Source: Clostridia bacterium (GTDB lineage Bacteria > Bacillota > Clostridia > UBA1381 > UBA9506). Taken from it: a stretch of DNA of 60,704 nt. Below the pieces are notes generated by a model that made no database searches, had not been told where the DNA came from, and saw nothing but the letters and a program-made list of their open reading frames with translations. Both the position numbers and the translations under genes were made by a program. The first letter of the stretch is position 1. The number at the start of each line of letters is the position of its first letter. Shown here piece by piece: positions 2,377 to 39,928 of this stretch. The stretch covers positions 1 to 60,704 of the forward strand of contig JAFYXI010000073.1 in the NCBI GenBank assembly GCA_017546245.1, in the 5' to 3' direction.

Positions 2377-2994
2377 TTACCACTTTCTTTTGCTCTCAAT
2401 CACTTTGCCGCAAACACGAACCCTAAGAACATCTAATCCTTTAAACTTCATCGGCGGATAATATGGATTAAACGAAATAAGCTCTATGCTCCCCTCGTCA
2501 TATATAACCTTTTTTACAACACCTTCCTGACCGTCAACAACAAAAACACCTACGTCGCCGCTGTCAACCGAGGTTTGCTTGCGTATTAAAAGAAAATCTC
2601 CGTCGTCTATACGCGGTGCCATACTGTCACCGCTTACCTTAAGCCAGAAATAGTCTTCTTCGTTATATTTTTCATCAGCAGCCTCGTAACCTATAATGTC
2701 CTCTGCTGCCAAAACTCCGTTACCTGCACAAACTCTGCCCACGACAGGAAGCAAGTGTCTTTTCTCTATCGGTATAGCCCTATTGGTATCAACCAAAGGC
2801 ATCTCGCCATATTCCATAAGGCTGTCGAGCGAAATATCGAACACCTTTGCTATTTTTTTTAACGTATCTAAGTCAGGCTCACGTCGGTTTTGTTCATACA
2901 TTCCTACCGCACTTGTAGAAATTCCGAGTTTTTTTGCCAGATCACGCTGTGTCATTTCTTTGCCACGCAATTCTCTTATTTTATCGCCTAACAT
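2377..2994 (-). CDS. XRE-family/S24 LexA-like self-cleaving repressor
   Basis: This is a 205-aa cI/LexA-type repressor. Residues 1–62 form an XRE helix-turn-helix (MTQRDLAKKLGISTSAVGMYEQ). Residues 80–205 are an S24 autoprotease domain with the Ala90-Gly91 cleavage site in RVCAGNG, nucleophile Ser124 in SGDSMAP and general-base Lys161 in EGVVKK. In this family RecA filaments trigger self-cleavage after DNA damage. The start is ATG 2994 with GAGG 7 bp upstream; a GTG at 3000 is too close to it. Its promoter carries ACACAAATCGTGT in the spacer, suggesting autoregulation. The same operator occurs twice at the phage-like operon promoter near 39.9 kb, so that operon is the likely main target (inference). 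It is not the housekeeping LexA, whose HTH is of a different (winged) type. Confidence 0.9.
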   Translation of the reverse strand: MLGDKIRELRGKEMTQRDLAKKLGISTSAVGMYEQNRREPDLDTLKKIAKVFDISLDSLMEYGEMPLVDTNRAIPIEKRHLLPVVGRVCAGNGVLAAEDIIGYEAADEKYNEEDYFWLKVSGDSMAPRIDDGDFLLIRKQTSVDSGDVGVFVVDGQEGVVKKVIYDEGSIELISFNPYYPPMKFKGLDVLRVRVCGKVIESKRKW

Positions 2995-3024: not shown

Positions 3025-3053
3025 ATCATAACACAAATCGTGTGAAAAAGCAA
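3025..3053 (-). promoter_or_regulatory. Repressor promoter with operator in the spacer
   Basis: On the minus strand TTGCTT (3048–3053), a 17-bp spacer and TATGAT (3025–3030) form a σA-type promoter. The spacer contains ACACGATTTGTGT, which on the plus strand reads ACACAAATCGTGT (3031–3043). The position within the promoter is the same as in the phage-like operon promoter at 39900–39928. Confidence 0.8.
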
Positions 3054-25317: not shown

Positions 25318-25355
25318 TAAAATATCCGCCACTTCTTCCAAAGTGACGGATATTT
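25318..25355. terminator. Bidirectional terminator between sigE and the phage-like operon
   Basis: AAATATCCG-CACTT pairs with AAGTG-CGGATATTT around a short loop, with flanking A and T runs. It lies between two convergent stop codons (25316 and 25355). Confidence 0.8.
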
Positions 25356-25771
25356 CATTTAGAAAAATCATTTCTTATGTTTCTCACTCTGTAAAGCTCT
25401 CTTAAATATTTCGCATCTTCTTCAATCACACCGTTTTCAATATTCTTATCTTCGGTATATTGTTCATACTCCCGCAGTTCAGAAATTGCATGCTTCCACT
25501 CTTCTCTGCTGTGTTGCTTTCCATTTCGGCAACTGTTTGCAAAAGATAAAATATGCCACCTTTTATCCTGTGCCTTGGTTTGCTCAAAATCTCTTTGCAA
25601 ATCAGAAAGCCGTTCACTTACCTCACCGTTTATCATTTTACCGACCCATTTTAAGATTTTCTCCCAAGGATTTATTTTAATCGGTGCAATTTCAATTAAT
25701 GTAAGTGCACCGATTAAAACTATCTCAGGATGCATAGACATTCTTTCTAAAATCTCGAAAAAATTATCCAT
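25355..25771 (-). CDS. Phage lysis-cassette-associated protein with one N-terminal membrane segment
   Basis: A 138-aa protein. Residues about 14–30 are hydrophobic (PEIVLIGALTLIEIAPI) and the rest is charged and helical with the segment WHILSFANSCRNGKQHSREEWKHAISEL. I recall similar FANSCRNG proteins next to holins in clostridial phages, but the function is not known to me. As the last gene of the operon, after amidase and holin, a role in lysis or as a second holin-like or antiholin protein is plausible. RBS AAGGGG precedes ATG 25771. Confidence 0.7.
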   Translation of the reverse strand: MDNFFEILERMSMHPEIVLIGALTLIEIAPIKINPWEKILKWVGKMINGEVSERLSDLQRDFEQTKAQDKRWHILSFANSCRNGKQHSREEWKHAISELREYEQYTEDKNIENGVIEEDAKYLRELYRVRNIRNDFSK

Positions 25772-25782
25772 AAATATGCCCC

Positions 25783-25977
25783 TTATATATTTTCCTTATC
25801 CGTCAGACAATGCTTTTGATACTGAGTTCCGAAATAAAATGATATAACCACCGTAAATATGGTCAAAAACTGTTCCGATGAGATTTGCCCTTTTATAGCA
25901 AGAATAGTAAAAACAAAGGTAAGTAACAGAGTTACTATACTTTTTACATCTATGAGCTTAGCCAGTTGCTTTTTCAT
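25783..25977 (-). CDS. Phage holin
   Basis: A 64-aa protein with two hydrophobic stretches (VKSIVTLLLTFVFTILAIKG and EQFLTIFTVVISFYFGTQYQ) and a charged tail, typical of small phage holins that permeabilise the membrane so that the endolysin reaches the wall. It starts at ATG 25977 after GGAGG, directly downstream of the amidase gene. The position in the lysis cassette supports the call. Confidence 0.82.
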   Translation of the reverse strand: MKKQLAKLIDVKSIVTLLLTFVFTILAIKGQISSEQFLTIFTVVISFYFGTQYQKHCLTDKENI

Positions 25978-25992
25978 TTTTCCGCCTCCAAA

Positions 25993-26712
25993 TCAAAAAT
26001 TTCTCTCTCTTATAAACTGTAAGGTTTTACGTGCCAGCCAATATAATCGTCCGTTCGGATTTTGTCTCATTTCATTTTCAAACCCTTCTAAATCCTCTAC
26101 AATTCCTCTGTATGCATATTCCCAGGCAATATCATGAATATCTGTAAGCTCTGCGATACCGCCGGCACGCTCACCGGTTATCCCCTCAAATATAGCTTTT
26201 GCAAAATCTTCCTGTCTTGTCTTCAAAAACCATGCATCATCTTCGTTGTCAATAAAAGCCAATTCGACTAACAAAGCAGGCGACATTGTATTTTTAAGAA
26301 CCGCAAGCTCCGAACGTGCCTTTACACCTCTGTCAGCAGTCCCCAAATTATTAACTATCGCAGTCTGCACCCTTTGAGCAATTTCTGCCGCGTCGCTTCC
26401 CTTAGAATATACAAGGGTTTCTGTACCGCGTGCAGCTCCGTTAAACGCATTACAATGAATCGAAACAAACAAATCCGCTCTCCATGAGTTTGACATGCTT
26501 ACACGCTCATTTAAGCTCGAAGCAATAGTTCCGTTACCAACATTGTCGGTCACATAGTTGCGGCTCATTCTTACCTCGTGACCTGCCGACTGCAAAAGTT
26601 CACGCAATTTATTTGCTACCTCAAAGGTAACAATTTCTTCCCTCAAGCCAAAACCGCCTGCGCCTGTATCGCTACCCGAATAGTTGTGTCCGGGGTCAAG
26701 AAATATCTTCAT
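25993..26712 (-). CDS. N-acetylmuramoyl-L-alanine amidase (endolysin, Amidase_3)
   Basis: A 239-aa zinc amidase that cuts the bond between muramic acid and the peptide stem. Zinc ligands and catalytic residues are in place: His9 in FLDPGHN, Glu25/26 in LREE, His86 in SIHCN and the catalytic Glu150 in LLVELAFIDN. After about residue 175 comes a 60-aa tail (TDIHDIAWEYAYRGIVEDLE … ARKTLQFIRERNF) of unknown role, perhaps wall binding. The start is ATG 26712 with GGAGG upstream; it overlaps the end of the 66-aa gene by 17 bp. No signal peptide is present, so export depends on the holin. Confidence 0.92.
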   Translation of the reverse strand: MKIFLDPGHNYSGSDTGAGGFGLREEIVTFEVANKLRELLQSAGHEVRMSRNYVTDNVGNGTIASSLNERVSMSNSWRADLFVSIHCNAFNGAARGTETLVYSKGSDAAEIAQRVQTAIVNNLGTADRGVKARSELAVLKNTMSPALLVELAFIDNEDDAWFLKTRQEDFAKAIFEGITGERAGGIAELTDIHDIAWEYAYRGIVEDLEGFENEMRQNPNGRLYWLARKTLQFIRERNF

Positions 26713-26896
26713 CAGCCGCCTCCGTTTCTTCTGCGCTTTCTTCAATCGCAGTAAAACTGTCAACCTCCGATAAGTCCTCAATGGTTAAAACCTCTTTTTC
26801 AAACCAGCCAAGAGCATATTTATTAACCTTATAAGCCGGTTCACTCTTTGCCATATCTTTTAAAGTTTTCATTACAAAATATCTTAAATTAAACAT
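26696..26896 (-). CDS. Small acidic phage protein (XkdX-like position)
   Basis: A 66-aa protein with a basic/hydrophobic N-terminus (LRYFVMKTLKDMAKSEPAYK) and a strongly acidic C-terminus. The segment KYALGWFEKEVLTIEDL recalls XkdX-type proteins that lie between tail-fibre and lysis genes in PBSX-like phages. The assignment is by position and composition. Its first codon touches the stop of the baseplate gene. Confidence 0.6.
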   Translation of the reverse strand: MFNLRYFVMKTLKDMAKSEPAYKVNKYALGWFEKEVLTIEDLSEVDSFTAIEESAEETEAADEDIS

Positions 26897-29043
26897 TATA
26901 TCGTACCTCCTAAAGCTATAATTGCATTTGCCATTTCAGCAAAAGCTTTGTTAATATCTCTGTTGTATTCACAATCAATAAGCGCTCCGTTTGCGTCGGC
27001 ATATAGTGTCATATTAGGATATATGCTTTTAACTCCGTTTACTGTACCGTCTGCATTTACCTCATATTCTACCGGAGCTATATAAGGCTCGTATTCTGTA
27101 GAAGTTTCACCTAACTCTACTTGTAAATCAGATATTGTAAGATAGTCACCAATTTCTTTACCATTGTATAAATATAAGCGCACCACTAATGGTTTACCCT
27201 TTTCTGTTTGCTCTGGAATAGTAATAGGAACGGCTATTTTTGCGCCCACATCATCTACTTTTAAATTTATTGTTCTTACAAGGGCAGTAGTTGGATTAGC
27301 TCCAAAAGGATTGCCTTGCATTATAACAATAGCTCCAAGTGTATTAGTATCAGAGCCACCTAAAGCATCAAGATTACAAGATACTGTTAAGGTTTTACCA
27401 ATGTAGCTATCATAGTTCCCTAAATCCCATACCATAGAAGAAGCCGAAGCAGTACTATCTGCTATTCTTTCTATTGTAATTGTATTATCTTTAATAATAA
27501 AATTAGCAGTAGCAGTAGAAGCATTAGCATAGTTAGGTATATCTAAAAAGTTCTTACTAAATGCCTTTACTTTGACTGCGTTTATATCAATATAAGGTTT
27601 CCAATCGGTAGCAGAAGTGCCCACCATGACACAAGGATATAATGTTGTTGCTTCACCAGTAAAAGTCGTTAAAACGGCAATACCCACTTCTATATAAAAC
27701 GCATTATCAGGAACGATACCTGTTGTTATTTTACTCGAAACTAACCAATTATACGTAATTGCTATACCATCTTTATCATATAAATGAACGTAAACTCTTG
27801 TTGAGTAATCAGTAGGAATAATAGCAACAGCCTTTCCTCTATATGGCTCTGCTCCGAAACGTTTTAAAGTAAATACCGAATTAGAAGTACATACGTCCCT
27901 AACAGTAACACTATAATCTTCGTTTACTGTAGCTTTAGTTCCATAATTAGAAGTTGAAGTTCCAGTAAAGTTATAAGGTACCGGTACAATGTTCTTACTT
28001 CTAACCCTAACCCCTAATGTATGCTCTACAGGCGATACATCATCAATACGTATAGCCTCACCGCTTGCCGTGCCTTTGAGGGCATTAGCAAATGTATTAC
28101 GGCTTCTTTCTTCCATGTCAATTAAGGCAATATCGGCAGCTGTTTTGTTTCCTTCTACCACTTGGTCAAGGTCGGCAATCCATGTATTTGCTTGCTCAAC
28201 AGCTCCATTAAGTTCGTCAACCCTTTTACCCACATTTTCAATATCGGTTATAGCTTGTCGTTCTTCATCCGCTGTAGGTCTTGCCATAAGGTCATCCCTT
28301 AAAATTCCTATGTCTGTTGCATTAGCATTAACACTTTCTTGCAGACTTTGAATGTCTGTTTCATTATTAGCGACGCGAGGTTCGACATTATCTAACCTCG
28401 TTTTATTGGAATATGCCAGAGCATATATTCTCTCTTTTTCTTCTCCAAGATAGTCAATAGCTTCCTGCACATTTTCACCATTAACCCAATCATCAGTGCA
28501 TACTATATCCTTTGCTGTGTGCTTATTTGATTCCCCTGATATATGCTCATTAAAATTCGTTGCATTACCGTTAATCGCTTCAGCATTTGCCGCAATATCT
28601 TTACTTATTTCATTATGCTCCGAACGACACTCTAAATACTGCCCCTCAAGCTTTGACAAAACTGGTTCGTTATCTGCTGACGTTAAACCCACTTCACCAA
28701 AGCCCTCTCTAACGTTAGCCGATATAACTTTAGTTGTGGCATAAGAACCATCGGCCTTAACCAAAGCCACTTCAAATTCAAGTTCACCTTTTACTGAATA
28801 TGCATTATCTGCTACAACATAATACGCTCCGTCTTCTGTCGTAATACCGCTGTCAATAATAACTGCACCGTCTGCACGCTTAGCTTTTACTGTCAAACCG
28901 TATAAAGAGGCATCTATTTTTTTACCGTTTGAATAAAATACAAAATCAAATCTATATCCGCTTTTATCGCCGATGGTAAAGACTATGTTTTTATAAACTT
29001 CTCTTTCGCCTTCTAAATCAATTTTAAACTTATAGTTTATCAA
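26896..29043 (-). CDS. Baseplate upper protein (BppU-like) / receptor-binding fibre
   Basis: A 715-aa protein in the receptor-binding slot. Residues about 1–120 resemble the BppU N-terminal domain (FTIGDKSGYRFDFVFYSNGKKIDASLYGLTVKAKRADG). A long coiled-coil linker follows (about 125–330, rich in N and E). The C-terminal half has β-rich segments ending YEPYIAPVEYEVNADGTVNGVKSIYPN, a type seen on phage fibre and carbohydrate-binding modules. I prefer the TTG at 29043, 6 bp after GGGGGT; an ATG at 29061 overlaps the previous stop. This protein would decide which cells the particle attaches to. Confidence 0.72.
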   Translation of the reverse strand: MINYKFKIDLEGEREVYKNIVFTIGDKSGYRFDFVFYSNGKKIDASLYGLTVKAKRADGAVIIDSGITTEDGAYYVVADNAYSVKGELEFEVALVKADGSYATTKVISANVREGFGEVGLTSADNEPVLSKLEGQYLECRSEHNEISKDIAANAEAINGNATNFNEHISGESNKHTAKDIVCTDDWVNGENVQEAIDYLGEEKERIYALAYSNKTRLDNVEPRVANNETDIQSLQESVNANATDIGILRDDLMARPTADEERQAITDIENVGKRVDELNGAVEQANTWIADLDQVVEGNKTAADIALIDMEERSRNTFANALKGTASGEAIRIDDVSPVEHTLGVRVRSKNIVPVPYNFTGTSTSNYGTKATVNEDYSVTVRDVCTSNSVFTLKRFGAEPYRGKAVAIIPTDYSTRVYVHLYDKDGIAITYNWLVSSKITTGIVPDNAFYIEVGIAVLTTFTGEATTLYPCVMVGTSATDWKPYIDINAVKVKAFSKNFLDIPNYANASTATANFIIKDNTITIERIADSTASASSMVWDLGNYDSYIGKTLTVSCNLDALGGSDTNTLGAIVIMQGNPFGANPTTALVRTINLKVDDVGAKIAVPITIPEQTEKGKPLVVRLYLYNGKEIGDYLTISDLQVELGETSTEYEPYIAPVEYEVNADGTVNGVKSIYPNMTLYADANGALIDCEYNRDINKAFAEMANAIIALGGTI

Positions 29044-29054
29044 GACGACACCCC

Positions 29055-29939
29055 CTAACATAAAATTACTTTAATCGGAAAATTTAACAAGCCATCAAGT
29101 CTGCTTTCAACGGTCCAGCTATAGTTAAGTTTAAGCTTACTGCCATCTAAGGAAAACTTAACTGTTGCAGGCCATGAAAAGCCTCCGTTGTGTTCGCTTG
29201 CAACAACTAAATTTTCGTGGCTTGAGCCGCTTGTTTTATTTTGAATAAAATGAAAACCATAATAGCTGTCGTCTGCAAACGTATACATTCCCATACAGTC
29301 GCCGCTTCCATTCGATTTACGAGATAGCACGAACACTCTTGAATAATTATTTGTCTCCATATCAATAGTAAAGGTTCTTGTACCTGAATGTCCCGCTGTG
29401 TCTAAATTCACCTGAAGCATAATATCTTTTTCCATAGATACGTTTGCATTACTCTGATACCCCGGTACTCTGCCGCATGCATATTCGCGTTTATCCGTTA
29501 TAGCTTTTATTTCACTTATTTCAGCCAACATAACAACATCGGCATTATATGCCGGCTTTTCCGTCGAACAAACAGGATAATTGTAATTCTTTTCTGCCAA
29601 ATCCTGCTTTAAATATACATAGTTTATTACACCCGGAACATAGTCCATCGTGTGTGCCTCGGTTATACGAATCGTACTGCCATCTTCAAAAAAAGCCAAT
29701 CCGGGTGCAATTGCTATTTTCCCATCTGATACATGACTTACTTTAAGCGTATTAATACTGTCGGGTACAACACCCCCGGTATAAACTCCGCTTATTATTT
29801 CATTAAGTTTTTTTGCATTATATGCTTCTCCGTCAGTAAACGGATCAGCCACTCCCGAACTCACCAATGAGCTTACAAGCTTGTTTAAATCCTCCGCTCC
29901 GTATTCAACATTATCTGCAAATCCATATTCGTATGACAT
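29055..29939 (-). CDS. Tail/baseplate structural protein of unknown family
   Basis: A 294-aa protein between the Tal-like and BppU-like genes. The first 90 residues (YGAEDLNKLVSSLVSSGVADPF, APGLAFFEDGSTIRI) look like an N-terminal attachment domain. The rest is β-rich (TFTIDMETNNYSRVFVL). No catalytic motif is recognised. It ends with TAG 6 nt after the ATG alternative start of the next gene. This TAG stop within the operon argues that amber is not reassigned here. Confidence 0.65.
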   Translation of the reverse strand: MSYEYGFADNVEYGAEDLNKLVSSLVSSGVADPFTDGEAYNAKKLNEIISGVYTGGVVPDSINTLKVSHVSDGKIAIAPGLAFFEDGSTIRITEAHTMDYVPGVINYVYLKQDLAEKNYNYPVCSTEKPAYNADVVMLAEISEIKAITDKREYACGRVPGYQSNANVSMEKDIMLQVNLDTAGHSGTRTFTIDMETNNYSRVFVLSRKSNGSGDCMGMYTFADDSYYGFHFIQNKTSGSSHENLVVASEHNGGFSWPATVKFSLDGSKLKLNYSWTVESRLDGLLNFPIKVILC

Positions 29940-29943
29940 TCTA

Positions 29944-30900
29944 TCACTCCTCCATTATAGGCTGCTCGCCTACGTCATTTTCTTCGTACCATAAATGAAC
30001 TCCAACAATTCTCATTAAAGCAGTTTTTTCAAAACCAGCTTTTTCTATTTTCATTTTTACCGTATCGCCAAGCTCATAATCCGTATGCCATGCAAAATCA
30101 ACCGCTAACGCTTTGGCAGAGTTTTTAATTTTTTTCTTTTCCAGTTCTTTAACCGCCTCAGTTTCCGACCTGGCCGAAAGAATACTTTCCCACCTGTAAA
30201 TACCATTTAACGCTTTTATTTCTTTTAAAGACCATATCGGTTCAAGAACAGTTCCGTCATCCGCCTTTTCCTGTTCTTTTAAATACCAACCGCCCGAACA
30301 TAAATCAATGCAATCCGATAAAAACTCAAGCTCTGCTCCATTTCTGTTTCCTTCAGATATAACCGTTAAAATTTCTTTAGGATATATAATTTTAAACAAC
30401 CATTTTTTCTGTTTGGTATCAAAAATAACTCTATGCCCCAAATTGCCCAGTTCAAGACAATCTATAACCGCATCAGACAGCAGTCGATAATCCTCCTGTA
30501 TAATCTCAACTGTCTTTTGGCTTATATTTTCATCTGTTGTTTCAACCGTCAGTGCATCAGAAAAAATTTCCATAACCATTTGATTTGCAAGCTCTCCGCA
30601 GCCTCCTGTTTTTATTTCAAACGCAGGAACTACACGTTTTGATAAAATCCAGTTACAGGTTCTCCCAAAAACTGCAAAATCTTCAGACGATTGCCAACCG
30701 ACAATAACAGCCGCCTTTTCCCCTTGAACAGCAACAATGTACTGCTTACCGGTTATAATCTTAACTATTTCAGAATCGTTTGAAAAATGTGCTTCAAACT
30801 GTCCTATATCATTAAAATAAATCTGCCAGTTAACACTTATAAAATCATTCTGTATGGCAAGCAGGTTAAATTCAAAATCATAAAATTTAATATCTTCCAC
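29944..30900 (-). CDS. Tail-associated protein, ReqiPepy6 Gp37-like (Tal-type)
   Basis: A 318-aa protein in the tail-associated-lysin position. It contains the pattern NWQIYFNDIGQFEAHFSND … IVAVQGEKAAVIVGWQ seen in the siphovirus Gp37-like family that forms the baseplate hub. No lytic domain is visible. I start at GTG 30900 because AAGGAG lies 7 bp upstream and the ORF from there begins with the conserved region; the ATG at 30960 lies inside the upstream gene. Confidence 0.75.
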   Translation of the reverse strand: MEDIKFYDFEFNLLAIQNDFISVNWQIYFNDIGQFEAHFSNDSEIVKIITGKQYIVAVQGEKAAVIVGWQSSEDFAVFGRTCNWILSKRVVPAFEIKTGGCGELANQMVMEIFSDALTVETTDENISQKTVEIIQEDYRLLSDAVIDCLELGNLGHRVIFDTKQKKWLFKIIYPKEILTVISEGNRNGAELEFLSDCIDLCSGGWYLKEQEKADDGTVLEPIWSLKEIKALNGIYRWESILSARSETEAVKELEKKKIKNSAKALAVDFAWHTDYELGDTVKMKIEKAGFEKTALMRIVGVHLWYEENDVGEQPIMEE

Positions 30901-30920
30901 TTTATCACTCCTTGCGCATT

Positions 30921-31772
30921 CTAACATACAGCCTCTAAATATCTGTTCACAAATCTGCATACAATGCTTAAATTTGTTTCAGCATCACTCGTTACATTTA
31001 TATTATTTGCTCCCTCTTTTAGTATAAATTTATTAAGGCTGGAGTCATCCGATAAAGATGTAATAAGATTTTCACCTCTGTCATTGTAAATCCTGCGCTT
31101 TGCAATATCAATGGTAACAACATCACAAGGCTTAGGATACAACGTCATAACAAGCTTACAATCCGATGTTTCATTACAAATTGTCAGTATAATTTTTTTC
31201 TCTGCTGCGATTTCAGCGCCAAAATATATATTAAATATCGGTTCTGCCTCAACATCTCCGCGATTTATAACCACGCCGCCTGATATTCTGCCGGTAAATA
31301 TTTTTGGAAATTTAAATGTATTCTTAATTTCTTTTGTTCTCTTAAACAGCGCAACAAAATCATTCCCTACATCTTCAAAATAAGGACAATCGCAACAAAA
31401 CTGCATGGCAAATTTTTTAAATATGCCATAGGCATCGCCCTCTTCAAATCCGGTGCAATACGCCTCTATTCTTCTTGTCACACCATTAGAACGGATAACA
31501 AGCCACCCCGGTTTATCAAGTATTTTTATTGCCCTTGATATTTTATGCGCAGCCGATTTTTCTGTACCTAAAACATCTCCTGCAATTGTAATAATTCTTG
31601 CTTCACGTCGTTCACTTACGGTCTTTTGACCGGCTTCTGAAAAATAAGATACCGTCTGATATTTTTTGTCCGACATTCCAAGACCGGTTATTCTTGTTAT
31701 ACGCCACGCTTCATCGCCACCGCCGCTTAAGCAAAGCCTGCCTGTATCATTTTCAAAAATAATCTTGGTCAT
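30921..31772 (-). CDS. Distal tail protein (Dit-like)
   Basis: A 283-aa protein directly after the putative tape measure, the usual position of Dit, which joins tail tube to baseplate. The N-terminal half has the tail-protein pattern (RITRITGLGMSDKKYQTVSYFSEAGQKTV … REARIITIAGDVLG) and an internal FPKIFTGRISGGVVINRGDVEAEPIFNI motif seen in the Sipho_tail family. Its ATG overlaps the previous stop (ATGA), indicating coupling. Confidence 0.8.
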   Translation of the reverse strand: MTKIIFENDTGRLCLSGGGDEAWRITRITGLGMSDKKYQTVSYFSEAGQKTVSERREARIITIAGDVLGTEKSAAHKISRAIKILDKPGWLVIRSNGVTRRIEAYCTGFEEGDAYGIFKKFAMQFCCDCPYFEDVGNDFVALFKRTKEIKNTFKFPKIFTGRISGGVVINRGDVEAEPIFNIYFGAEIAAEKKIILTICNETSDCKLVMTLYPKPCDVVTIDIAKRRIYNDRGENLITSLSDDSSLNKFILKEGANNINVTSDAETNLSIVCRFVNRYLEAVC

Positions 31773-32980
31773 AAATTTCTCATCCTTTCCAATTCATTAT
31801 GACTTCGGGCGCTGGCAAGCTGCTGCGCAACAGTTTCTCCGCTTCCGTTTAATATATATGTGGTTGAATTATTGTTATAATTTCCGGCACTTTGTATAAC
31901 AGATGAATTTATGTCCTTAGGCTCAAATGATACCGAAAAAGATTGAACCATCTGTTTAATTTTTTCCATCTGCAGCTTAAGCTCTTCTAAAAAAGCAGAA
32001 CCAAAATTTATAGCTGACTCTGTGCCGCTTAAGGTAAATTCTTCCGGAATGCTAAGACCTGCCTCCGTCAGTTTTTTTATCATATAGTCTTTTACATCAT
32101 CAACTGCCGCTGTAAATTGTTCAGAATAAATATCTTTTGAAATACTCTCCGACAGATCCTGCTTCTTTGCCCACTTGTTTAAATAATCCGAAAACTGTTC
32201 GTCATTTAATTCACCCAGCAGTTCAGCAAATTTTGTTCCCTCTGTTACAGACATCTCGTTTATTGCAGATAAAAGACCTGCAAATGTTCCGTCTGAAAAA
32301 TTGCCTTCACTCACTCGTTCTTTTAACGATTTTAGAGCATCAGAATATTTTGTCATCGCCTCAATCTGCGGCTCAAGGTCAGAAAGAATAGTGTACACTT
32401 CCTCACCTTTTCCATCACCAAGCCCCTTAAAAATCTGCTTTCTTGTAATGTTACCTAAATTGGCAAGCTTATCTTCCATTGCATTCTGAGATTTTAAGAT
32501 GTCCGATATTCTTTCTGATGCATACTGTGCAATTTCATTATATGTTTTTTTAATATCCTGCTTTAACTGATTTAAAATTTTCTATTCCTGTTCAGCAGTT
32601 TGTTTCAGTTGTTCTAAGTATTCATTGTCGGCAAGCTTTTTAAGTCTTAACAATTCATTTTTTTCAACTATTTCCCGATTAGTTGCATTTTTTGCAGCAG
32701 CAAGCCTTTTAGAATATTCAAGCCTTTTGGTTTCTTCCGCTATTTTGGCATACTCAGCTTCCAGTCTTTCAGATTCTTCTAAATAAAACCGTTCAGATTC
32801 AAGCATACTATCATAAAAATCTTCTCCTGCTTTCTTGGCATATTCGCCGAGTCCCGATAAATTCTGTATGCTGTTATCAATTGAATCATCAATTAAATCT
32901 ACACTTTTTTGCAAATCCTCTCCCAAAGACTCTATTTCTTCCCGTACTGCTTTAATTTCTTTTTGCGAATCGTTTGCCAT
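31769..32980 (-). pseudogene. Putative tape measure gene interrupted by one in-frame amber codon
   Basis: Two ORFs, 32582–32980 (132 aa) and 31769–32479 (236 aa), are in the same frame. The 102 bp between them are open in that frame (KILNQLKQDIKKTYNEIA, YASERISDILKSQNAMEDK). The only interruption is TAG at 32582–32584 after QTAEQE. Read through, the product is 403 aa, charged and coiled-coil, in the tape-measure slot between the Gp15-like chaperone and Dit; it lacks the hydrophobic helices of most tape measures. Possible explanations are a nonsense mutation, natural amber suppression, internal restart at ATG 32479, or a sequencing error. TAG is used as an ordinary stop elsewhere (6629, 29055), so general recoding is unlikely. 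Confidence 0.75.
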
Positions 32981-32991
32981 ATTACGCCCCC

Positions 32992-33564
32992 TTATTCCAT
33001 CATCTGCGAAATCATTTCCGCCAGCTCGCTGTCCCCATCACCCAAACGCCGGCTCGGCAGACGATAAATTCTCTTTAAATTTCTATAATGCTCCTTTTGA
33101 TTTTTATCAGAAATTACCGATAAATCCATTGCTCTCCACTGCATAACAGAAAAAAGCTTGGTATCCTGACCGACAGAACGAAATAACGCTAAAAATTTCC
33201 ACCAATGCAACTCTTCTTCAGTCAGATCTATTCTGTATTGCTGCATAAAAGCCGCATAAATGAGTTCAGCATCAAATTCAAAATCAAACACCCTGAAAAA
33301 TGTTCCTTGTTGTATTTTATTTTCAGCATATACCTCGCTGCCGCCACAATAAAAATTAATGAGCAATTTAAATGCAACATTGGCATCAGGCGGCAGATTG
33401 TCCTTGTAACATAGTTTAAAAAGTTCAATTATCTTTTCAAACCATGGCAATTCAGAATACAAAATATTTTCCGTATTTATCCATACACGAAAATCAGTAT
33501 TTATCATATAACGTTCACCTTCATACACTACATAATCAGGCATTTCTTTTTTTAAATAAATCAT
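32992..33564 (-). CDS. Gp15-family tail assembly protein (chaperone-like)
   Basis: A 190-aa protein matching the phage Gp15 family in layout: aromatic N-terminus (MPDYVVYEGERYMINTDFRVW), KIIELFKLCYKD, FEFDAELIYAAFMQQYRIDL and LHWWKFLALFRSV. Such proteins sit before the tape measure and are taken to be tail assembly chaperones. The start is uncertain: TTG 33579, GTG or ATG 33564 all follow G-rich stretches; I give ATG 33564. Confidence 0.75.
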   Translation of the reverse strand: MIYLKKEMPDYVVYEGERYMINTDFRVWINTENILYSELPWFEKIIELFKLCYKDNLPPDANVAFKLLINFYCGGSEVYAENKIQQGTFFRVFDFEFDAELIYAAFMQQYRIDLTEEELHWWKFLALFRSVGQDTKLFSVMQWRAMDLSVISDKNQKEHYRNLKRIYRLPSRRLGDGDSELAEMISQMME

Positions 33565-33591
33565 ACCGCCCACCGCCAATCTTAATTACTG

Positions 33592-34080
33592 TTATTCTGC
33601 AAAGATTAAAGTCTTCCAGTTATCGTTACTGGTTGCACTGCCAATAACCTTATCACCCGATGCTTTAAAGCTGCCGGAATAGGTATATGCCTCCACCGAG
33701 CCGCCCTCGCTGTCAGGAATAACTGCAAACTCACGCTTAACCGCTCTGTACGAACCATTGTTCTCGCTTGTAAAATCAACAACAACTATCGAGCGTATTG
33801 CCTCAGTACCTATACACTCTCCGTCAGCAAGCGCCGCCAAATCACTATGTACTTTATTTCCGTCAAACTGATCAAATTCATAAGAAAATACAGGACTGTA
33901 ACCTACAACATCATTTCTCTCATGTTCTTCGTCAATATACTGACGTTTATATTCTTTCGGATTTGCCTTTTTCGAAAATTCGGTAAATCCGCTCATTCTG
34001 TAATAAGTAACGGTATCATTTTCAACAACACCGTAAAAAGCAAGCTTTTGACATCTTCTAACTAATTTTTCATTTAACAA
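33592..34080 (-). CDS. Major tail (tube) protein-like
   Basis: A 162-aa protein in the major tail protein slot. The segments VENDTVTYYRMSGFTEFSKKANPKEYKRQYID and SPVFSYEFDQFDGNKVHSDLA recall clostridial phage tail tube proteins. The C-terminus is β-rich. The start is a TTG at 34080 with AAGGAGG 9 bp upstream. The call is from size, position and pattern; no decisive motif exists. Confidence 0.65.
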   Translation of the reverse strand: MLNEKLVRRCQKLAFYGVVENDTVTYYRMSGFTEFSKKANPKEYKRQYIDEEHERNDVVGYSPVFSYEFDQFDGNKVHSDLAALADGECIGTEAIRSIVVVDFTSENNGSYRAVKREFAVIPDSEGGSVEAYTYSGSFKASGDKVIGSATSNDNWKTLIFAE

Positions 34081-34082
34081 AT

Positions 34083-34505
34083 TTATATACCTCCTTCAAA
34101 ATAAACCACCGTGCACTCAATGCTGTATTTAGCACAATCATCAGCCATATCTTTTAAAACACCCGAGCTTGATACCCTGATCGATTGCGTCACTTTATCC
34201 TTGCCTATATCAGGCAATTCTCCCATGTCATTCTTAGCCGCAATCCACTCCGAAAATTTTTCATGAAATTCTGCCGCTTTTAAATGCTTGTCAACACTCA
34301 TTCCAACATACTCACGCGAGGTTATTGCAAAAACAAATTTTTTAAGCATGCCTCCGTCCGAATACCGCTTAATAACTTCATCGGTGCTGATTCGTTCAAC
34401 AGAATATTCCACAGGCTCTGCACCTAAAAAATCAACATTAATCTTTCCCTCGCAAATCAAAGGGCATCCTGCAATAAATTCTCTTATTCCGTTTATAATA
34501 CTCAC
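34083..34505 (-). CDS. Phage minor structural protein (tail-terminator position)
   Basis: A 140-aa protein beginning at a GTG with GGGAGG upstream. It contains VDFLGAEPVEYSVERIST and YVGMSVDKHLKAAEFHEKFSEWI. Its place immediately before the tail tube protein is that of tail terminators or minor capsid proteins. No named family is recognised with certainty. Confidence 0.6.
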   Translation of the reverse strand: MSIINGIREFIAGCPLICEGKINVDFLGAEPVEYSVERISTDEVIKRYSDGGMLKKFVFAITSREYVGMSVDKHLKAAEFHEKFSEWIAAKNDMGELPDIGKDKVTQSIRVSSSGVLKDMADDCAKYSIECTVVYFEGGI

Positions 34506-34524
34506 GTTTTACCTCCCGCTCATA

Positions 34525-34857
34525 CTAACGGCACACAATTTTAAAATGCCGTACTGCTTTGTGACCTCTGCAATTATCTGCAAAACCGCAAACCATCAGA
34601 CTGCTCTCCGGTGGAACATCAGATAAACAATTACCCAAAACAACTCTGTCACCAACAGAAACTGTCGGCATCTCCTTAACAGGAATCCTTATAACCGTTT
34701 TACGTTCTCTCCAAGGACCGTTTCTGCTGTGGCGTTTTTCTACCGATACTTTGCCCACAACAGAGCATTTCGGATAATAGCTGCGATAGAATATCTCTTT
34801 TTTCGAATCTTTGTCAATCCCGGTACGATAAACGGTAACACCGCTGCGTGCAATCAT
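34525..34857 (-). CDS. Phage head–tail connector/minor capsid protein
   Basis: A 110-aa basic β-rich protein (VTVYRTGIDKDSKKEIFYRSYYP … VSVGDRVVLGNCLSDVPP). Its start overlaps the previous stop by 4 bp (ATGA). It occupies the head-closure position between head–tail adaptor and tail genes. The family is not recognised; the role is inferred from synteny. Confidence 0.6.
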   Translation of the reverse strand: MIARSGVTVYRTGIDKDSKKEIFYRSYYPKCSVVGKVSVEKRHSRNGPWRERKTVIRIPVKEMPTVSVGDRVVLGNCLSDVPPESSLMVCGFADNCRGHKAVRHFKIVCR

Positions 34858-35192
34858 ATACCTATCCCCCTGTAAATCAGAAACGACGGCAGAATTTTTA
34901 CAGCAGCACGGTACATCTCTGTTTCATCCGGCGATTCATAAATAACCTGATATCCGTCATTTGATTCTGAGTGAACACCTTGTCTGTTTTCGTGTTCAAA
35001 ATATATTTCAGTTAAAGCACACTCTGCAAGCTTCACCTCATCAGGAATAGCCTCAGCACCCTTTAGCGCTCCATTAGTAAGCCAATCAATATAACACTTA
35101 GCCTTAACAGCAGCGGAGGCAAAATCCTCCGCTGTCTCAATCACGTTGCCGCAAAACTCAGTCTGATAAAAATTAAAATCTGAATAAGGCAT
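34854..35192 (-). CDS. Phage head–tail adaptor protein
   Basis: A 112-aa helical protein directly after the capsid gene. DFASAAVKAKCYIDWLTNG and EVKLAECALTEIYFEHENRQG match the helical layout of gp6/Ad1-type connector proteins that bind beneath the portal. RBS GGGAGG precedes ATG 35192. Confidence 0.7.
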   Translation of the reverse strand: MPYSDFNFYQTEFCGNVIETAEDFASAAVKAKCYIDWLTNGALKGAEAIPDEVKLAECALTEIYFEHENRQGVHSESNDGYQVIYESPDETEMYRAAVKILPSFLIYRGIGI

Positions 35193-35206
35193 TATATCGC
35201 CTCCCG

Positions 35207-36088
35207 TTAAGCCTTGGTGCTTAAATAAATACCGTTCTTTTTGTTTTCAAACACACGGTTAAGACCGTAAATACGGTATCCGAATTTATATGCATCGGCA
35301 TCAGGATTTGCTTCCGGCATAATAACCTTCGGAGCCTGATGCTTTGTAATCTGCATTACCGCCGGTTTATGAATAATCATAAAGTTAATATCCGTTGCAT
35401 CATCTGCTTTTACATAACCGCCTGCGGTTTCATCCGCTAAATCCGTCACCTTACCGCTTTTCAAGTCTACAGATGTACAAAATCTGCTCTGCGGAACAGC
35501 AATAATACCTGCAAAACGTTTTAAAACTTCTTTAGAAACGGTAGTATCAACACCGTCAATTAAATCAAGCAAAGTCGGAGTAATAAACAAGTATCTGTCC
35601 TCCTCACCAACCTCGCTGTTATCCATCTGTGATTTTGCTTTACGAAGAGCGCCAAGCACTTCTTCTCCGTCTGCATATTCAACAGGATCAGCCTTTAAAA
35701 TACCGTCTTCTGATGCATACTGTGCAAAACGAACCGCATCAAGCTCCGGAACAACCTTTGTACGAATAAACTCGCCGGAAAGCTTCCCAAAAGCCACACC
35801 GGCTGTTTCCTCATTGTCCATCGCATCAACCGAAAACATTCTGCCTCTTTCATAGTTAAACTGTACGGTTTCATTAGTAAGCTTAACATCGCCGTCTGCA
35901 TAACCGCTGTTTCTGTCGTAATTGCCTAAACCGGACATTTCCATTTTAGGTATAATCAGCTCATTTGCATTTGCACCCTGCTGAACAAGCAAAGAATCAC
36001 TTTCTAATACAGCAGTTTTTGCCGTCTGCTGATAAACCTCGTCTAAAAGTCCCACATAATTTTTGAATAACTGAATTGAATTTGCCAT
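35207..36088 (-). CDS. Major capsid protein
   Basis: A 293-aa protein in the capsid slot after the scaffold gene. Typical features are the early SDSLLVQQGANANELIIPKMEMSGLGNYDR segment, FNYERGRMFSVDAMDNEE, RYLFITPTLLDLI and the C-terminal KFGYRIYGLNRVFENKKNGIYL. No protease is encoded nearby, so the capsid probably matures without delta-domain cleavage and uses the separate scaffold. The RBS AAAGGAG is strong, as expected for an abundant protein. Confidence 0.85.
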   Translation of the reverse strand: MANSIQLFKNYVGLLDEVYQQTAKTAVLESDSLLVQQGANANELIIPKMEMSGLGNYDRNSGYADGDVKLTNETVQFNYERGRMFSVDAMDNEETAGVAFGKLSGEFIRTKVVPELDAVRFAQYASEDGILKADPVEYADGEEVLGALRKAKSQMDNSEVGEEDRYLFITPTLLDLIDGVDTTVSKEVLKRFAGIIAVPQSRFCTSVDLKSGKVTDLADETAGGYVKADDATDINFMIIHKPAVMQITKHQAPKVIMPEANPDADAYKFGYRIYGLNRVFENKKNGIYLSTKA

Positions 36089-36108
36089 TTAAAATCTCCT
36101 TTTCTTTT

Positions 36109-36642
36109 TTAAATTCCCATTGCTTCACGAACGGCACTTGTCCCATCCGATTCTTTTATATCACCCATCGCCGCCGAAAACTGCGGAAGATCGCTGTCAG
36201 AATGGAACAAATATCCGTACTGCTCTTTTACCTGACTTATTTGCCCGTCAAGACCGATAACAGAATCCCCTTCTACGCTAACCTCTTCCCAGTTAATAAG
36301 CGCATCTAAAACCTCTGTGTTTTTTACGCCGTTTTGTAAGTAAAGTTTTTCTTTTTCATCACAAAGTATAGATTTTTCGGTCATCTTTTTAGCAGCAAGC
36401 TCTGCCTGTCCTGCTTTTTCTTTCCATGAGTTTAATTCATTTTTTAACCCCTCATAATCCATACTGCGATAGTTTTCAAGCTCCTGCTTTGTATCAGCAA
36501 GTTCGTTTAACACACGCTCAAGCTCCAGTCGTTCCTGCTGATTAACGCTTTTTGTGCGTTCAATGTCTCTGCCGTTTATGGCCAATATACTGTCAGCTTG
36601 CTCACGGGTTAAACCTAAATTTAAAAGTTCTTCTGTTTTCAT
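36109..36642 (-). CDS. Phage scaffold protein (GP20-like)
   Basis: A 177-aa, highly charged, coiled-coil protein (ERLELERVLNELADTKQELENYRS) starting MKTEELLNLGLTREQADSIL, the usual N-terminus of GP20-type scaffold proteins that template capsid assembly. The start is ATG 36642, 8 bp after GGGAGG; the ORF is open to 36669 without an RBS. Confidence 0.82.
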   Translation of the reverse strand: MKTEELLNLGLTREQADSILAINGRDIERTKSVNQQERLELERVLNELADTKQELENYRSMDYEGLKNELNSWKEKAGQAELAAKKMTEKSILCDEKEKLYLQNGVKNTEVLDALINWEEVSVEGDSVIGLDGQISQVKEQYGYLFHSDSDLPQFSAAMGDIKESDGTSAVREAMGI

Positions 36643-36672
36643 CAGATATTCCTCCCATTTTCCGCGCATAAC

Positions 36673-36735
36673 CTACGCATTTTTATTATTTGTTGTATGC
36701 GGCATAAAAAGACTACGCTTTTTAGGTGGTCGCAT
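36673..36735 (-). CDS. Possible 20-aa basic peptide between portal and scaffold genes
   Basis: ATG 36735 is preceded by AGAGGA at a usable distance and opens MRPPKKRSLFMPHTTNNKNA before TAG. It sits in the only gap above 100 bp inside the structural genes. It may be real or chance; no homologue is recognised. Confidence 0.3.
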   Translation of the reverse strand: MRPPKKRSLFMPHTTNNKNA

Positions 36736-36782
36736 CACCTATCCTCTGCATATTAGGCTTGCAGAACAGCCAATTTATATAA

Positions 36783-38162
36783 TCAGGCAACACCTGCATC
36801 TGTTTTAAACACCCTGCCCGAAACAGCCTTTTTAGCCACTTCTTCGCTTTCGCCAAAATACCACATTCTAAATTCCCACGGATGCATAATTCCATTTTGT
36901 ACAAGCTGTTGCTTTTCAGCAAATTCGGCATTTCTGTCGGTTATGCTGCTGTCATCAAATTCAAAAGAAACACTGCTCTTTCCGCTTGGCGCAAGCTTAT
37001 ATAGGCTGCATAATACATCCATTGCATAAACAAGCTCCTCTAAGGCTTTAGCAACAGACTTCTGCACATCACAGATCATCGAAAAGCTTCTCTGTTTAGA
37101 GGCTCTTACCTCCTCTGCCGTCTTATCAACATTATCAATATCCGATAACGTACCGTAAGCAAGGCCGCAGTTAAACTCTATCTTGCGCAATATGCTGTTT
37201 AATCCACGCAGAATGTTTTCTTCACGTAAATTCGGAGTCCAGTCAGAAAATAAATCATCGCCGTTTTGTTCTAAAGCAAGCAAGCGGTAAAGTCTTTTAT
37301 CAGGAATTATTGCTCGGCCGTTTTTATCTACACGAAACGCCATATCTGAAACATACAAAGCTCTTTCACCGCTTTCAAACTCCCATAACAATCTCGAATA
37401 CTGTCTGTCAGCCTCGCAAATCAAATCGCAGGCACGCGCATAAACCGAAACACCAAGCGGCGAACCCGGGTCTACCGCATTTGCATAAGGAACTTTAAAA
37501 TACCCTATTAAAAGGCGGTCAACGTTTTTAATAGAAACATTTGGAGATATTTCTTTCCATTCCGCCACCTGACTGAGCGGTATTTCCTTTCCCAATACAC
37601 CTTTTGTACGACTAAAATACGCATGGTTGACTATTTTATAAATTTTGTTTTCAATAATGTGTTCTTCAAGTCTGGTATAAATTGCACCGTCTTTTTTTAT
37701 CTGACCCACGAAAATTGCTCCGGTAATTCTTCCTGAGCTGTCAAATGCTGTCGGAAAAAACTTATCCGCCTGAATAAAATCTACTAAAATTTTATTACCG
37801 TCTACATATGGCTTCATTACCATTCCACCTTTGGCACAGCCATATTCAACAAACCTTCTTAAATTTTCCAAAACAGGCTGATACGCTTTGTTCAAAAATT
37901 CAGCCCGCGCGCTGCCCGAAACCTCCGACCTCATTTCAACAGTTGCTAAACGCGCCACCTCAGCTGCAATAGCAGCCGGCAAGTTAAGACTTTTAACCTT
38001 GTCATTACACCACGGCGATTCATTGTCATACATTAAAGACCACAAAGACAGTGCCTCTTTCATTTTTTCAGACACCTCACCGCCTGCCCTTACTTTTTTC
38101 TCAACCTCGCTTGTTCTAACCAATTTAGTCATCCCCCTTATCAAATCCTTAAGCTTTGTCAA
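36783..38162 (-). CDS. Phage portal protein (SPP1 gp6-like)
   Basis: A 459-aa portal, the dodecameric ring through which DNA enters the head. The segments WCNDKVKSLNLPAAIAAEVARL, RRFVEYGCAKGGMVMKPYVDGNKI, NVDKTAEEVRASKQRSFSMI and the C-terminal ITDRNAEFAEKQQLVQNGIMHPWEFR are standard for this group. The start is a TTG at 38162 after AAAGGCGG. The gene is intact and follows terL after 26 bp. Confidence 0.9.
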   Translation of the reverse strand: MTKLKDLIRGMTKLVRTSEVEKKVRAGGEVSEKMKEALSLWSLMYDNESPWCNDKVKSLNLPAAIAAEVARLATVEMRSEVSGSARAEFLNKAYQPVLENLRRFVEYGCAKGGMVMKPYVDGNKILVDFIQADKFFPTAFDSSGRITGAIFVGQIKKDGAIYTRLEEHIIENKIYKIVNHAYFSRTKGVLGKEIPLSQVAEWKEISPNVSIKNVDRLLIGYFKVPYANAVDPGSPLGVSVYARACDLICEADRQYSRLLWEFESGERALYVSDMAFRVDKNGRAIIPDKRLYRLLALEQNGDDLFSDWTPNLREENILRGLNSILRKIEFNCGLAYGTLSDIDNVDKTAEEVRASKQRSFSMICDVQKSVAKALEELVYAMDVLCSLYKLAPSGKSSVSFEFDDSSITDRNAEFAEKQQLVQNGIMHPWEFRMWYFGESEEVAKKAVSGRVFKTDAGVA

Positions 38163-38188
38163 AATTCCACCGCCTTTATAAATTTTAA

Positions 38189-39379
38189 TTACCTGAACTG
38201 TCTTCTTAAAATGGTATTACAAAAATATCTTACATCATCCATAGCATGGTCGTTAACCTTTAAAACCGCATCAGACTGCGCATCCTCATCCCACACATAA
38301 GACCTGAATTCTCTTAAGCAACCCTTGCAGCTCTCATGAAACAAAAGCCTCTCTTGCGCAAGAAGCGAGAATACCAGTCTTATACCATCTAAAACCTTGT
38401 TGTCTGCTTTTTTTACCGCAAATCTGCCTTTTCTTTTAATGCAGGCTATAAAGCTTGCCGCCGATGGATCTATAATAACCTGCCTTATTGGTAAATTCCC
38501 TGCCAATATCTCTAACTGCTGATAATACTCCTCATCTGTCATTTGCCGTTGCTCCTGCCTGCCGTCATAATAAAATTCTCTCAGTCTTGTTGCCTGCATT
38601 TTTTCTCTGTCAATTTGCCAAAGACCCATCGAGCATGGATTAAGCGTTCCATAATCAACCGAAATATAAAAATCGCCTTTTTCTTCAATCTTGCCCTTTA
38701 TAACGTGTTTTTCTTCGCTGAAATTCGGATAAACCAAACCTTCTGCATTAATCCATTCACCGCAGATAAATCTTTCATAAAAAATGCCGGTGTATTCTTT
38801 TTTTAAATTTTCAACAAAATCAACGGATAAAAAACAATTATCATCAATCAAAAACTTTTCGCAATAAATATCAAGCTCATCTTTCCTGTCAATGTACTTT
38901 TTCTTAAGCCAATGCTCAGGCGAATCAGGATTTGTAGTACCTATAAGCTTTGCTCCATCTGCAGACATTCTTGAAAGCAGCATTGAAAAAAACTCCTGAG
39001 GAAAAAGTGTAATTTCGTCACAGTACACACCTGAAAGTGTCATTCCGCGAATCTTTTCTTCTGCTCTGGCATCGCTTGCCCCCTCAAGATAAATTTTCCT
39101 GCCCATTAGCACCGCCTCTTTTTTCGATAAGCTGTAAGAAAAATACTTTTCGCCCGCAATCTTAGATAAAATATCCAGGCAATTTCGCTTTAATGAATCC
39201 AACGTTTTAGCACACATAAGATAATTAGCATTTTTAGGCATCTGCGTTATCCACAGCGCCCATAAAATTAAGCTAATCCACGTTTTGCCCGAACGAACCG
39301 AGCCTTGCAAAATATTAATTCGTTTAAGACCGTCTTTTAACATCAGGCATAATATTTCCCATTGTTTTTCACTAAACAG
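38189..39379 (-). CDS. Terminase large subunit
   Basis: The packaging motor and nuclease. Walker A is QGSVRSGKTW and Walker B SGVYCDEITLF; the nuclease domain has Asp residues in ISVDYGT, VIIDPSA and HAMDDVRYF, so both activities look intact. The first ATG (39343) leaves 384 aa, but the conserved N-terminal segment LFSEKQWEIL lies upstream of it in the same frame. No ATG, GTG or TTG exists between the terS stop (TGA, 39386–39388) and 39343; the only candidate is the CTG at 39379. I give that extended start with reservation. The family is PBSX XtmB-like. Confidence 0.85.
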   Translation of the reverse strand: MFSEKQWEILCLMLKDGLKRINILQGSVRSGKTWISLILWALWITQMPKNANYLMCAKTLDSLKRNCLDILSKIAGEKYFSYSLSKKEAVLMGRKIYLEGASDARAEEKIRGMTLSGVYCDEITLFPQEFFSMLLSRMSADGAKLIGTTNPDSPEHWLKKKYIDRKDELDIYCEKFLIDDNCFLSVDFVENLKKEYTGIFYERFICGEWINAEGLVYPNFSEEKHVIKGKIEEKGDFYISVDYGTLNPCSMGLWQIDREKMQATRLREFYYDGRQEQRQMTDEEYYQQLEILAGNLPIRQVIIDPSAASFIACIKRKGRFAVKKADNKVLDGIRLVFSLLAQERLLFHESCKGCLREFRSYVWDEDAQSDAVLKVNDHAMDDVRYFCNTILRRQFR

Positions 39380-39385
39380 AGCCTT

Positions 39386-39787
39386 TCATTCCGGTTCTTG
39401 CGCCACAGCCTTGTCGATAGCTTTATTACTCCTTTTGCTTTTTGTTGATTTTTTGTCTGATTTTTTAACAAAATCATCATCTTTCTTTTTTGCAAGCGAT
39501 TTTTTAATAGCACAAACCATCTCTTCCAGCTCATTTCTACCGCCCTCATCTTCACCCAGCATAGCCTTAACTTCTTTAAAAGCAGATACATCACCCTTTT
39601 CAATAGCCTTATCCAACACCGACCGCGCTAAAAGCATAGCCTGATTTACCTCGTTACCCTTATATCCGTTTGCGGCAAACCTTTCCTGTTCTTCTTCATT
39701 TGCCGGCATATTTAAAAGCTCGGTCATATATTCTGCCAAAGAACCTGCTGTGTTGGTTTTATTTTTTCTTTTGCCCGTACCTATCAC
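39386..39787 (-). CDS. Terminase small subunit-like protein
   Basis: A 133-aa charged protein immediately upstream of terL and first in the operon. It has a helical N-terminal half (LAEYMTELLNMPANEEEQERFAANGYKGNE) and a Lys-rich C-terminus, suitable for DNA recognition during packaging. The family match is by position and composition. The start is awkward: GTG 39787 overlaps AGGAGG. It ends with TGA in the same frame as terL. Confidence 0.65.
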   Translation of the reverse strand: MIGTGKRKNKTNTAGSLAEYMTELLNMPANEEEQERFAANGYKGNEVNQAMLLARSVLDKAIEKGDVSAFKEVKAMLGEDEGGRNELEEMVCAIKKSLAKKKDDDFVKKSDKKSTKSKRSNKAIDKAVAQEPE

Positions 39788-39812
39788 CTCCTGTTACCAT
39801 CCCACAAATAAA

Positions 39813-39825
39813 ACACATTACGTGT
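39813..39825. promoter_or_regulatory. Second operator copy in the phage-like operon leader
   Basis: ACACATTACGTGT, matching the ACACA-WWW-CGTGT operator of the XRE/S24 repressor promoter and of the phage-operon promoter. It lies about 70–80 bp downstream of the predicted transcription start and just before terS. Confidence 0.75.
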
Positions 39826-39875
39826 GATTTGCTTTTAAAAATAAAAGCATTTAGCGCCACACACAGAAAATAACA

Positions 39876-39928
39876 GAACATTTGTTCTGTATGATGTGTA
39901 TTATACCACACGATATGTGTTTTGTCAA
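39876..39928 (-). promoter_or_regulatory. σA promoter of the phage-like operon with repressor operator and LexA box
   Basis: On the minus strand TTGACA (39923–39928), a 17-bp spacer and TATAAT (39900–39905) give a full-consensus promoter. The spacer holds ACACATATCGTGT (39908–39920). At about +6 to +17 lies GAACAAATGTTC (39876–39887) inside the longer palindrome ACAGAAC-N4-GTTCTGT, a match to the Gram-positive LexA/DinR box GAAC-N4-GTTC. It predicts tight repression and release on DNA damage. Confidence 0.88.

Follow-up and report, generated by a model that had tools for sequence, protein, structure and literature searches.

A candidate GTA-like phage particle operon with predicted LexA and XRE-S24 control in a genus of gut Clostridia

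An operon of phage genes in a Clostridia genome is probably a siphovirus-like particle operon that was domesticated by its host lineage, is derepressed in the SOS response through two repressors and yields a product resembling a gene transfer agent (GTA). The operon was found in a 60,704-nt stretch of DNA (hereafter the window) that lies on contig C49 of the 2.03-Mb, 73-contig genome of a gut bacterium (G000), where it spans positions 25355–39928 on the minus strand. Its content, constraint and predicted control suggest a mode of action like that of a GTA or a PBSX-type particle, and we regard it as a good candidate for a GTA-like domesticated particle rather than as a proven GTA. The original prediction had proposed a GTA or a PBSX-like particle; the domesticated particle is upheld at the level of the genus, but the contractile tail of PBSX has no match in the operon.

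Profile matches on the minus strand identified terminase, portal, scaffold, capsid, connector, siphovirus-type tail and lysis genes within this single operon, in agreement with the predicted one-stranded morphogenesis and lysis operon. The gene run extends from 39787 to 25355 and starts with a TerS-like gene (39386–39787) and the terminase large subunit gene terL (38189–39343). These are followed by genes for the portal (36783–38162; phrog_533, 6e-122), the capsid scaffold (36109–36669), the major capsid protein (35207–36088; phrog_422, 5e-71) and a head-tail adaptor (34854–35192). A DUF6751 protein (34525–34857) is presumed from its position to act in head closure; it precedes a tail completion protein (34083–34505), a phrog_3099 protein presumed, also from position, to be the major tail protein (33592–34080), and a Gp15-type tail assembly chaperone (32992–33579). 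The tape measure, which is short (404 codons; 31769–32980), was recognized by its position and its homology to relatives, and the distal tail protein (Dit; 30921–31772) and the tail-associated protein (Gp37-like/Tal; 29944–30960) by profile matches. Position also suggests the roles of a baseplate-type protein (29055–29939) and of a candidate receptor-binding protein (26896–29061). The operon ends with a small protein conserved in relatives (26696–26896), an Amidase_3 endolysin (25993–26781), a protein that is holin-like by position and size (25783–25977; phrog_13256, a family without assigned function) and a last gene from a phage family of no known function (25355–25771; phrog_37604). A few phage genes without assigned function are part of the run. 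TerL belongs to the PBSX family TIGR01547 (157 bits for a cut-off of 105) and presents the Walker A (GSVRSGKT) and Walker B (VYCDE) motifs as well as the nuclease acidic residues, as had been predicted for its ATPase and nuclease.

Head, packaging, tail and lysis genes of phage origin are therefore gathered in one cluster, as in GTAs, and no match to integrase, replication or repressor genes was found among the genes of 25355–39928. The absence of an integrase and a replication module from the operon led us to reject a complete temperate prophage. A tailocin was rejected as well, because the head and packaging genes have not been lost: portal, capsid and terL are present with low dN/dS. The operon is flanked by spoIIGA-sigE and by comFC-aroQ, with terminators at both borders and no shared border repeat or att site longer than 9 bp, which bears out what had been read from the window about its borders. 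We searched the relatives for tyrosine integrases (PF00589). None was detected near the operon on any operon-bearing contig of the family, the nearest being located ~95 kb away in G012; the operon sites yielded no version equipped with a tyrosine integrase.

The chromosomal location of the operon differs within the genus. In the closest sister species (G002), two contigs show the neighbours seen in the window: on one the operon adjoins sigE, on the other comFC. In G001, it adjoins rplQ-rpoA. In both G001 and G003, a gene for a SigK-like sigma factor comes after comFC without any operon in between, and the operon is found elsewhere. The same-locus check thus succeeded for G002 and failed for G001 and G003, and the predicted long residence between sigE and comFC is not supported, since two congeners carry the operon at other sites. 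Because the comFC locus of G001 and G003 is undisturbed, the ancestor of G000 and G002 underwent either a move of the operon or a chromosomal rearrangement. At two loci (L226:2675–4833 and L231:2148–4278), aroQ-comFC is followed by the SigK-like sigma factor gene, which is missing at this place in the window; judging from these gene orders, the order aroQ-comFC-SigK-like looks ancestral in the genus. A satellite-like element that replicates and moves with the aid of a helper phage would account for the movement of the operon within the genus and for its lack of replication and integration genes. Such an element is very improbable, however, as the operon encodes an entire particle, contrary to what most phage satellites do, and possesses no integrase, origin or packaging-hijack genes of its own.

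We further analyzed the distribution of the operon among relatives. The portal gene is present as a single copy in all four genomes of the genus (G000, G001, G002 and G003) and was detected in 16 of the 20 genomes of the family; two family members that are at least 90% complete (G004 and G009) are devoid of the operon. In the portal tree (92 sequences), the window's genus (g1) and the genera g6 and g22 each form a single group with full support, next to which IMG/VR phages are placed, the clade of the window's genus being supported at 100/100. The three genera use three different capsid families (phrog_422, phrog_247 and phrog_544). These capsids, together with the absence from G004 and G009, led us to reject a single ancient GTA of the whole family, and vertical inheritance with the host lineage is observed at the genus level only. 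Even within the genus, the relationships of the genes are mixed, with terL and portal nearer to G001 and the tape measure nearer to G003. In genus g6, Mantel tests against sigE were mostly weak and a thiamine-transporter neighbour is common to most genomes; vertical descent in g6 therefore rests on monophyly and on this neighbour rather than on congruence. One g6 operon (L040:7145–12215, in G010) has lost the stretch of genes that separates the capsid gene from that of the receptor-binding protein. Among the neighbouring phages, the temperate siphophage L023 (IMG/VR 3300032167_007831), whose portal belongs to a neighbouring clade, shares the gene order and the short tape measure of the window operon. 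Unlike the operon, it has an AAA ATPase gene and, about 3 kb upstream of terL, a gene for a tyrosine integrase (PF00589).

Between G000 and G002, the median dS of the operon is about 0.8, similar to that of host genes (0.73–1.13 for sigE, spoIIGA, comFC and a neighbouring glycosyltransferase gene). The dN/dS ratios of the operon range from 0.03 to 0.30. Portal and capsid (both 0.037) are among the lowest and terL reaches 0.052, so the ratios of the three genes for which this check had been suggested are far from 1; the highest value is that of the candidate receptor-binding protein (0.30). The structural and packaging genes are thus under purifying selection, as expected for a GTA. Given this strong selection on portal, capsid and terminase and the lack of integration and replication ability, the product is most likely a GTA-like particle carrying host DNA. 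A ComEC-type Competence family was found in three of the four genomes of the genus and a DprA family in all four, which is compatible with DNA delivery and says no more than that.

The control region of the operon contains a sigma-70 promoter with a 12/12 match (TTGACA-17-TATAAT; 39900–39928, minus strand) ahead of the first gene, the sole such match in the scanned 16 kb and the single promoter that had been predicted. The spacer between −35 and −10 harbors a palindrome of the form ACACN5GTGT (O1, ACACATATCGTGT; 39908–39920), and a second copy (O2, ACACGTAATGTGT; 39813–39825) is located 95 bp away. A LexA/SOS box (GAACAAATGTTC; 39876–39887) is found 12 bp past the −10. Boxes of this class also precede recA and dinB in this genome, which encodes LexA. 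The LexA box is found ahead of the operon in all four genomes of the genus, with a fixed geometry in three. G000, G001 and G002 all present a spacer copy of ACACN5GTGT, at equal offset in G001 and G002, and a second copy 94–95 bp downstream, with nearly equal distances of the operators to the −35, the −10 and the LexA box; G003 keeps one copy and a partly preserved layout. Across the genome, neither motif exceeds the level expected by chance (13 sites versus 28 in the control for GAACN4GTTC; 22 versus 18 in the reversed control for ACACN5GTGT). The case for these sites consequently rests on position and conservation, not on counts.

Within the window, three ACACN5GTGT sites were observed for 0.35 expected, and none of 100 shuffles contained as many. 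The third site (3031–3043), the same palindrome as O1 and O2, lies in the spacer of the promoter that precedes an XRE-S24 (CI-like) repressor gene (2377–2994, minus strand) located 37 kb from the operon, and the orthologues of this gene in G001 and G003 carry the motif too. From this shared operator we propose that the XRE-S24 protein regulates the operon in trans; the claim that nothing relevant lies outside the operon is probably wrong. In genus g22, an XRE-S24 gene adjoins the operon in divergent orientation with a related operator (ACACGAAATGTGG), and the recognition helix (SAVGMYEQN) is near-identical. The simplest reading of these sequences would be that a single repressor family, whose gene is linked to the operon in g22 but not in g1, acts together with LexA. 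Other loci of the genus carry related elements. Contig C57 of G003 breaks off within a second XRE-S24 gene, of which the end is present and is 63% identical to the g22 repressor (L195:1498–1821). On contig C237 of G002 (L248:3106–4670), a second composite promoter of the same layout, with ACACGTTTTGTGT in its spacer followed by GAACAAATGTTC, precedes a gene that is located next to cdaA/cdaR-like genes and encodes a Mu-F-type minor head protein of 469 residues. This gene could possibly represent an unlinked second locus of the particle, judging from its promoter; the idea that it moved out of the operon is unsupported, since it shows no detectable similarity to anything in the comparison phages.

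We propose that two chromosomally encoded repressors, LexA and the unlinked XRE-S24 protein, would hold the operon off, LexA acting on the box just past the −10 and XRE-S24 on the two operators 94–95 bp apart. DNA damage, through the RecA filament, is expected to inactivate both repressors. A few cells would then produce capsids, fill them with DNA, attach short non-contractile tails and lyse.

This predicted SOS control, by a LexA box and S24 operators, recalls PBSX of Bacillus subtilis, an SOS-inducible defective element with an XRE-type repressor. A PBSX-like defective particle would be induced by SOS and package host DNA without delivering it, killing competitors or lysing its producer; the TIGR01547 family of TerL and the fast evolution of the receptor-binding candidate also fit such a particle. 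The tail of PBSX is contractile and its repressor gene adjacent, whereas the XRE-S24 gene of the window is unlinked and the tail genes belong to siphovirus-type Dit/Tal families, no contractile sheath family being detected among them. On this account, an assignment to PBSX based on a contractile (myovirus-type) tail was rejected. In addition, a killer acting by its tail alone needs no strong constraint on capsid and terminase, although PBSX does package DNA. A PBSX-like particle appears less likely than a GTA-like one.

The window's copy of the operon is not complete as had been claimed, since codon 133 of the tape-measure gene (32582–32584) is an in-frame TAG, which is AAG in G002. The gene is uninterrupted in G001, G002 and G003, with 404 codons in G001 and G002. 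Its dN/dS is nearly equal before and after the stop (0.113 and 0.093), which indicates that the stop is recent, or else an assembly error or a polymorphism. If real, this nonsense codon would prevent the assembled strain from building normal tails. The stop, the different chromosomal sites within the genus and the integrase of the related phage L023 would all suit the remnant of a temperate phage that is being lost by drift, its integrase and replication genes already gone, and whose presence in relatives reflects a common phage family. Such a remnant is quite improbable: dN/dS is low throughout the operon and does not relax after the stop, the operon is single-copy with one clade per genus, and the promoter layout has been kept in three species.

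Apart from TerS, the features of GTAs that sequence can address were all found in the operon. The TerS-like protein shares its core with the TerS of neighbouring phages, and the N-terminal MANEKNL...GGKKSGEVRREK (KGG) segment of phage TerS is absent from it in G000, G001 and G003. It has no HMM match, and its AlphaFold model (pLDDT 60) is too poor to use. The lack of the KGG segment agrees with the idea of a GTA-type TerS (PMC6854486), a DNA-binding role of this segment being putative. The start of the TerS-like gene is probably non-AUG, with ACG at the RBS-predicted start (39770–39790) in G000 and G002 and no GTG there in G002. In the genus, the TerS and TerL frames are continuous except for a single TGA; in g6 both form one open frame. 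The annotated start of terL (39343) removes a conserved FS.KQW motif, coding evidence reaching upstream to about 39382 in a frame that extends back to the TGA ending the TerS-like gene. No ATG, GTG or TTG lies between this TGA and FS.KQW (39340–39390) in G000 or G002, and G000 has one CTG. TerL may possibly be translated by readthrough or by restart at a non-standard codon.

To our knowledge, very few GTAs are known outside Alphaproteobacteria. The alphaproteobacterial RcGTA of Rhodobacter capsulatus is similar in size (about 14 kb) and is vertically inherited, as also seen for the window operon; it is controlled by GafA/CtrA, whereas LexA and an S24 repressor are predicted here. Compared by description, its siphovirus-like content resembles that of the window operon (PMC6854486). 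In gut Clostridia, FpGTA of Faecalibacterium is a phage-like structural cluster with TerS, TerL, portal, scaffold and capsid genes and no replication genes, found in all Faecalibacterium genomes examined in that study, and its TerS was reported to lack an obvious DNA-binding domain (PMC12946183). FpGTA I, which is 10.5 kb long, is described as podovirus-like, and a second operon holds the tail and lysis genes (PMC12946183). Compared by description, the window operon resembles it as a structural cluster of gut Clostridia without replication genes, and differs in that lysis genes and those for a siphovirus-type tail share a single operon of 14.4 kb. The same study reported that gut Clostridia show GTA-like packaging; of the MAGs that it searched, a single one yielded a strong candidate operon (PMC12946183).

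More tentatively, and with rather less than an even chance in our view, domestication may have turned members of one temperate siphophage family into genuine GTAs in several genera of the order, perhaps independently in each. In the window's genus, the phage repressor would then have split from the operon, with LexA and the unlinked XRE-S24 protein exerting joint control, and further head genes, such as that of the Mu-F protein of G002, would have joined the regulon elsewhere. If confirmed, the operon would represent a second candidate GTA lineage in gut Clostridia, of siphovirus type, with a control scheme by LexA and an unlinked S24 repressor that can be tested directly, and it would show a route by which a phage operon enters the SOS regulon of the cell.
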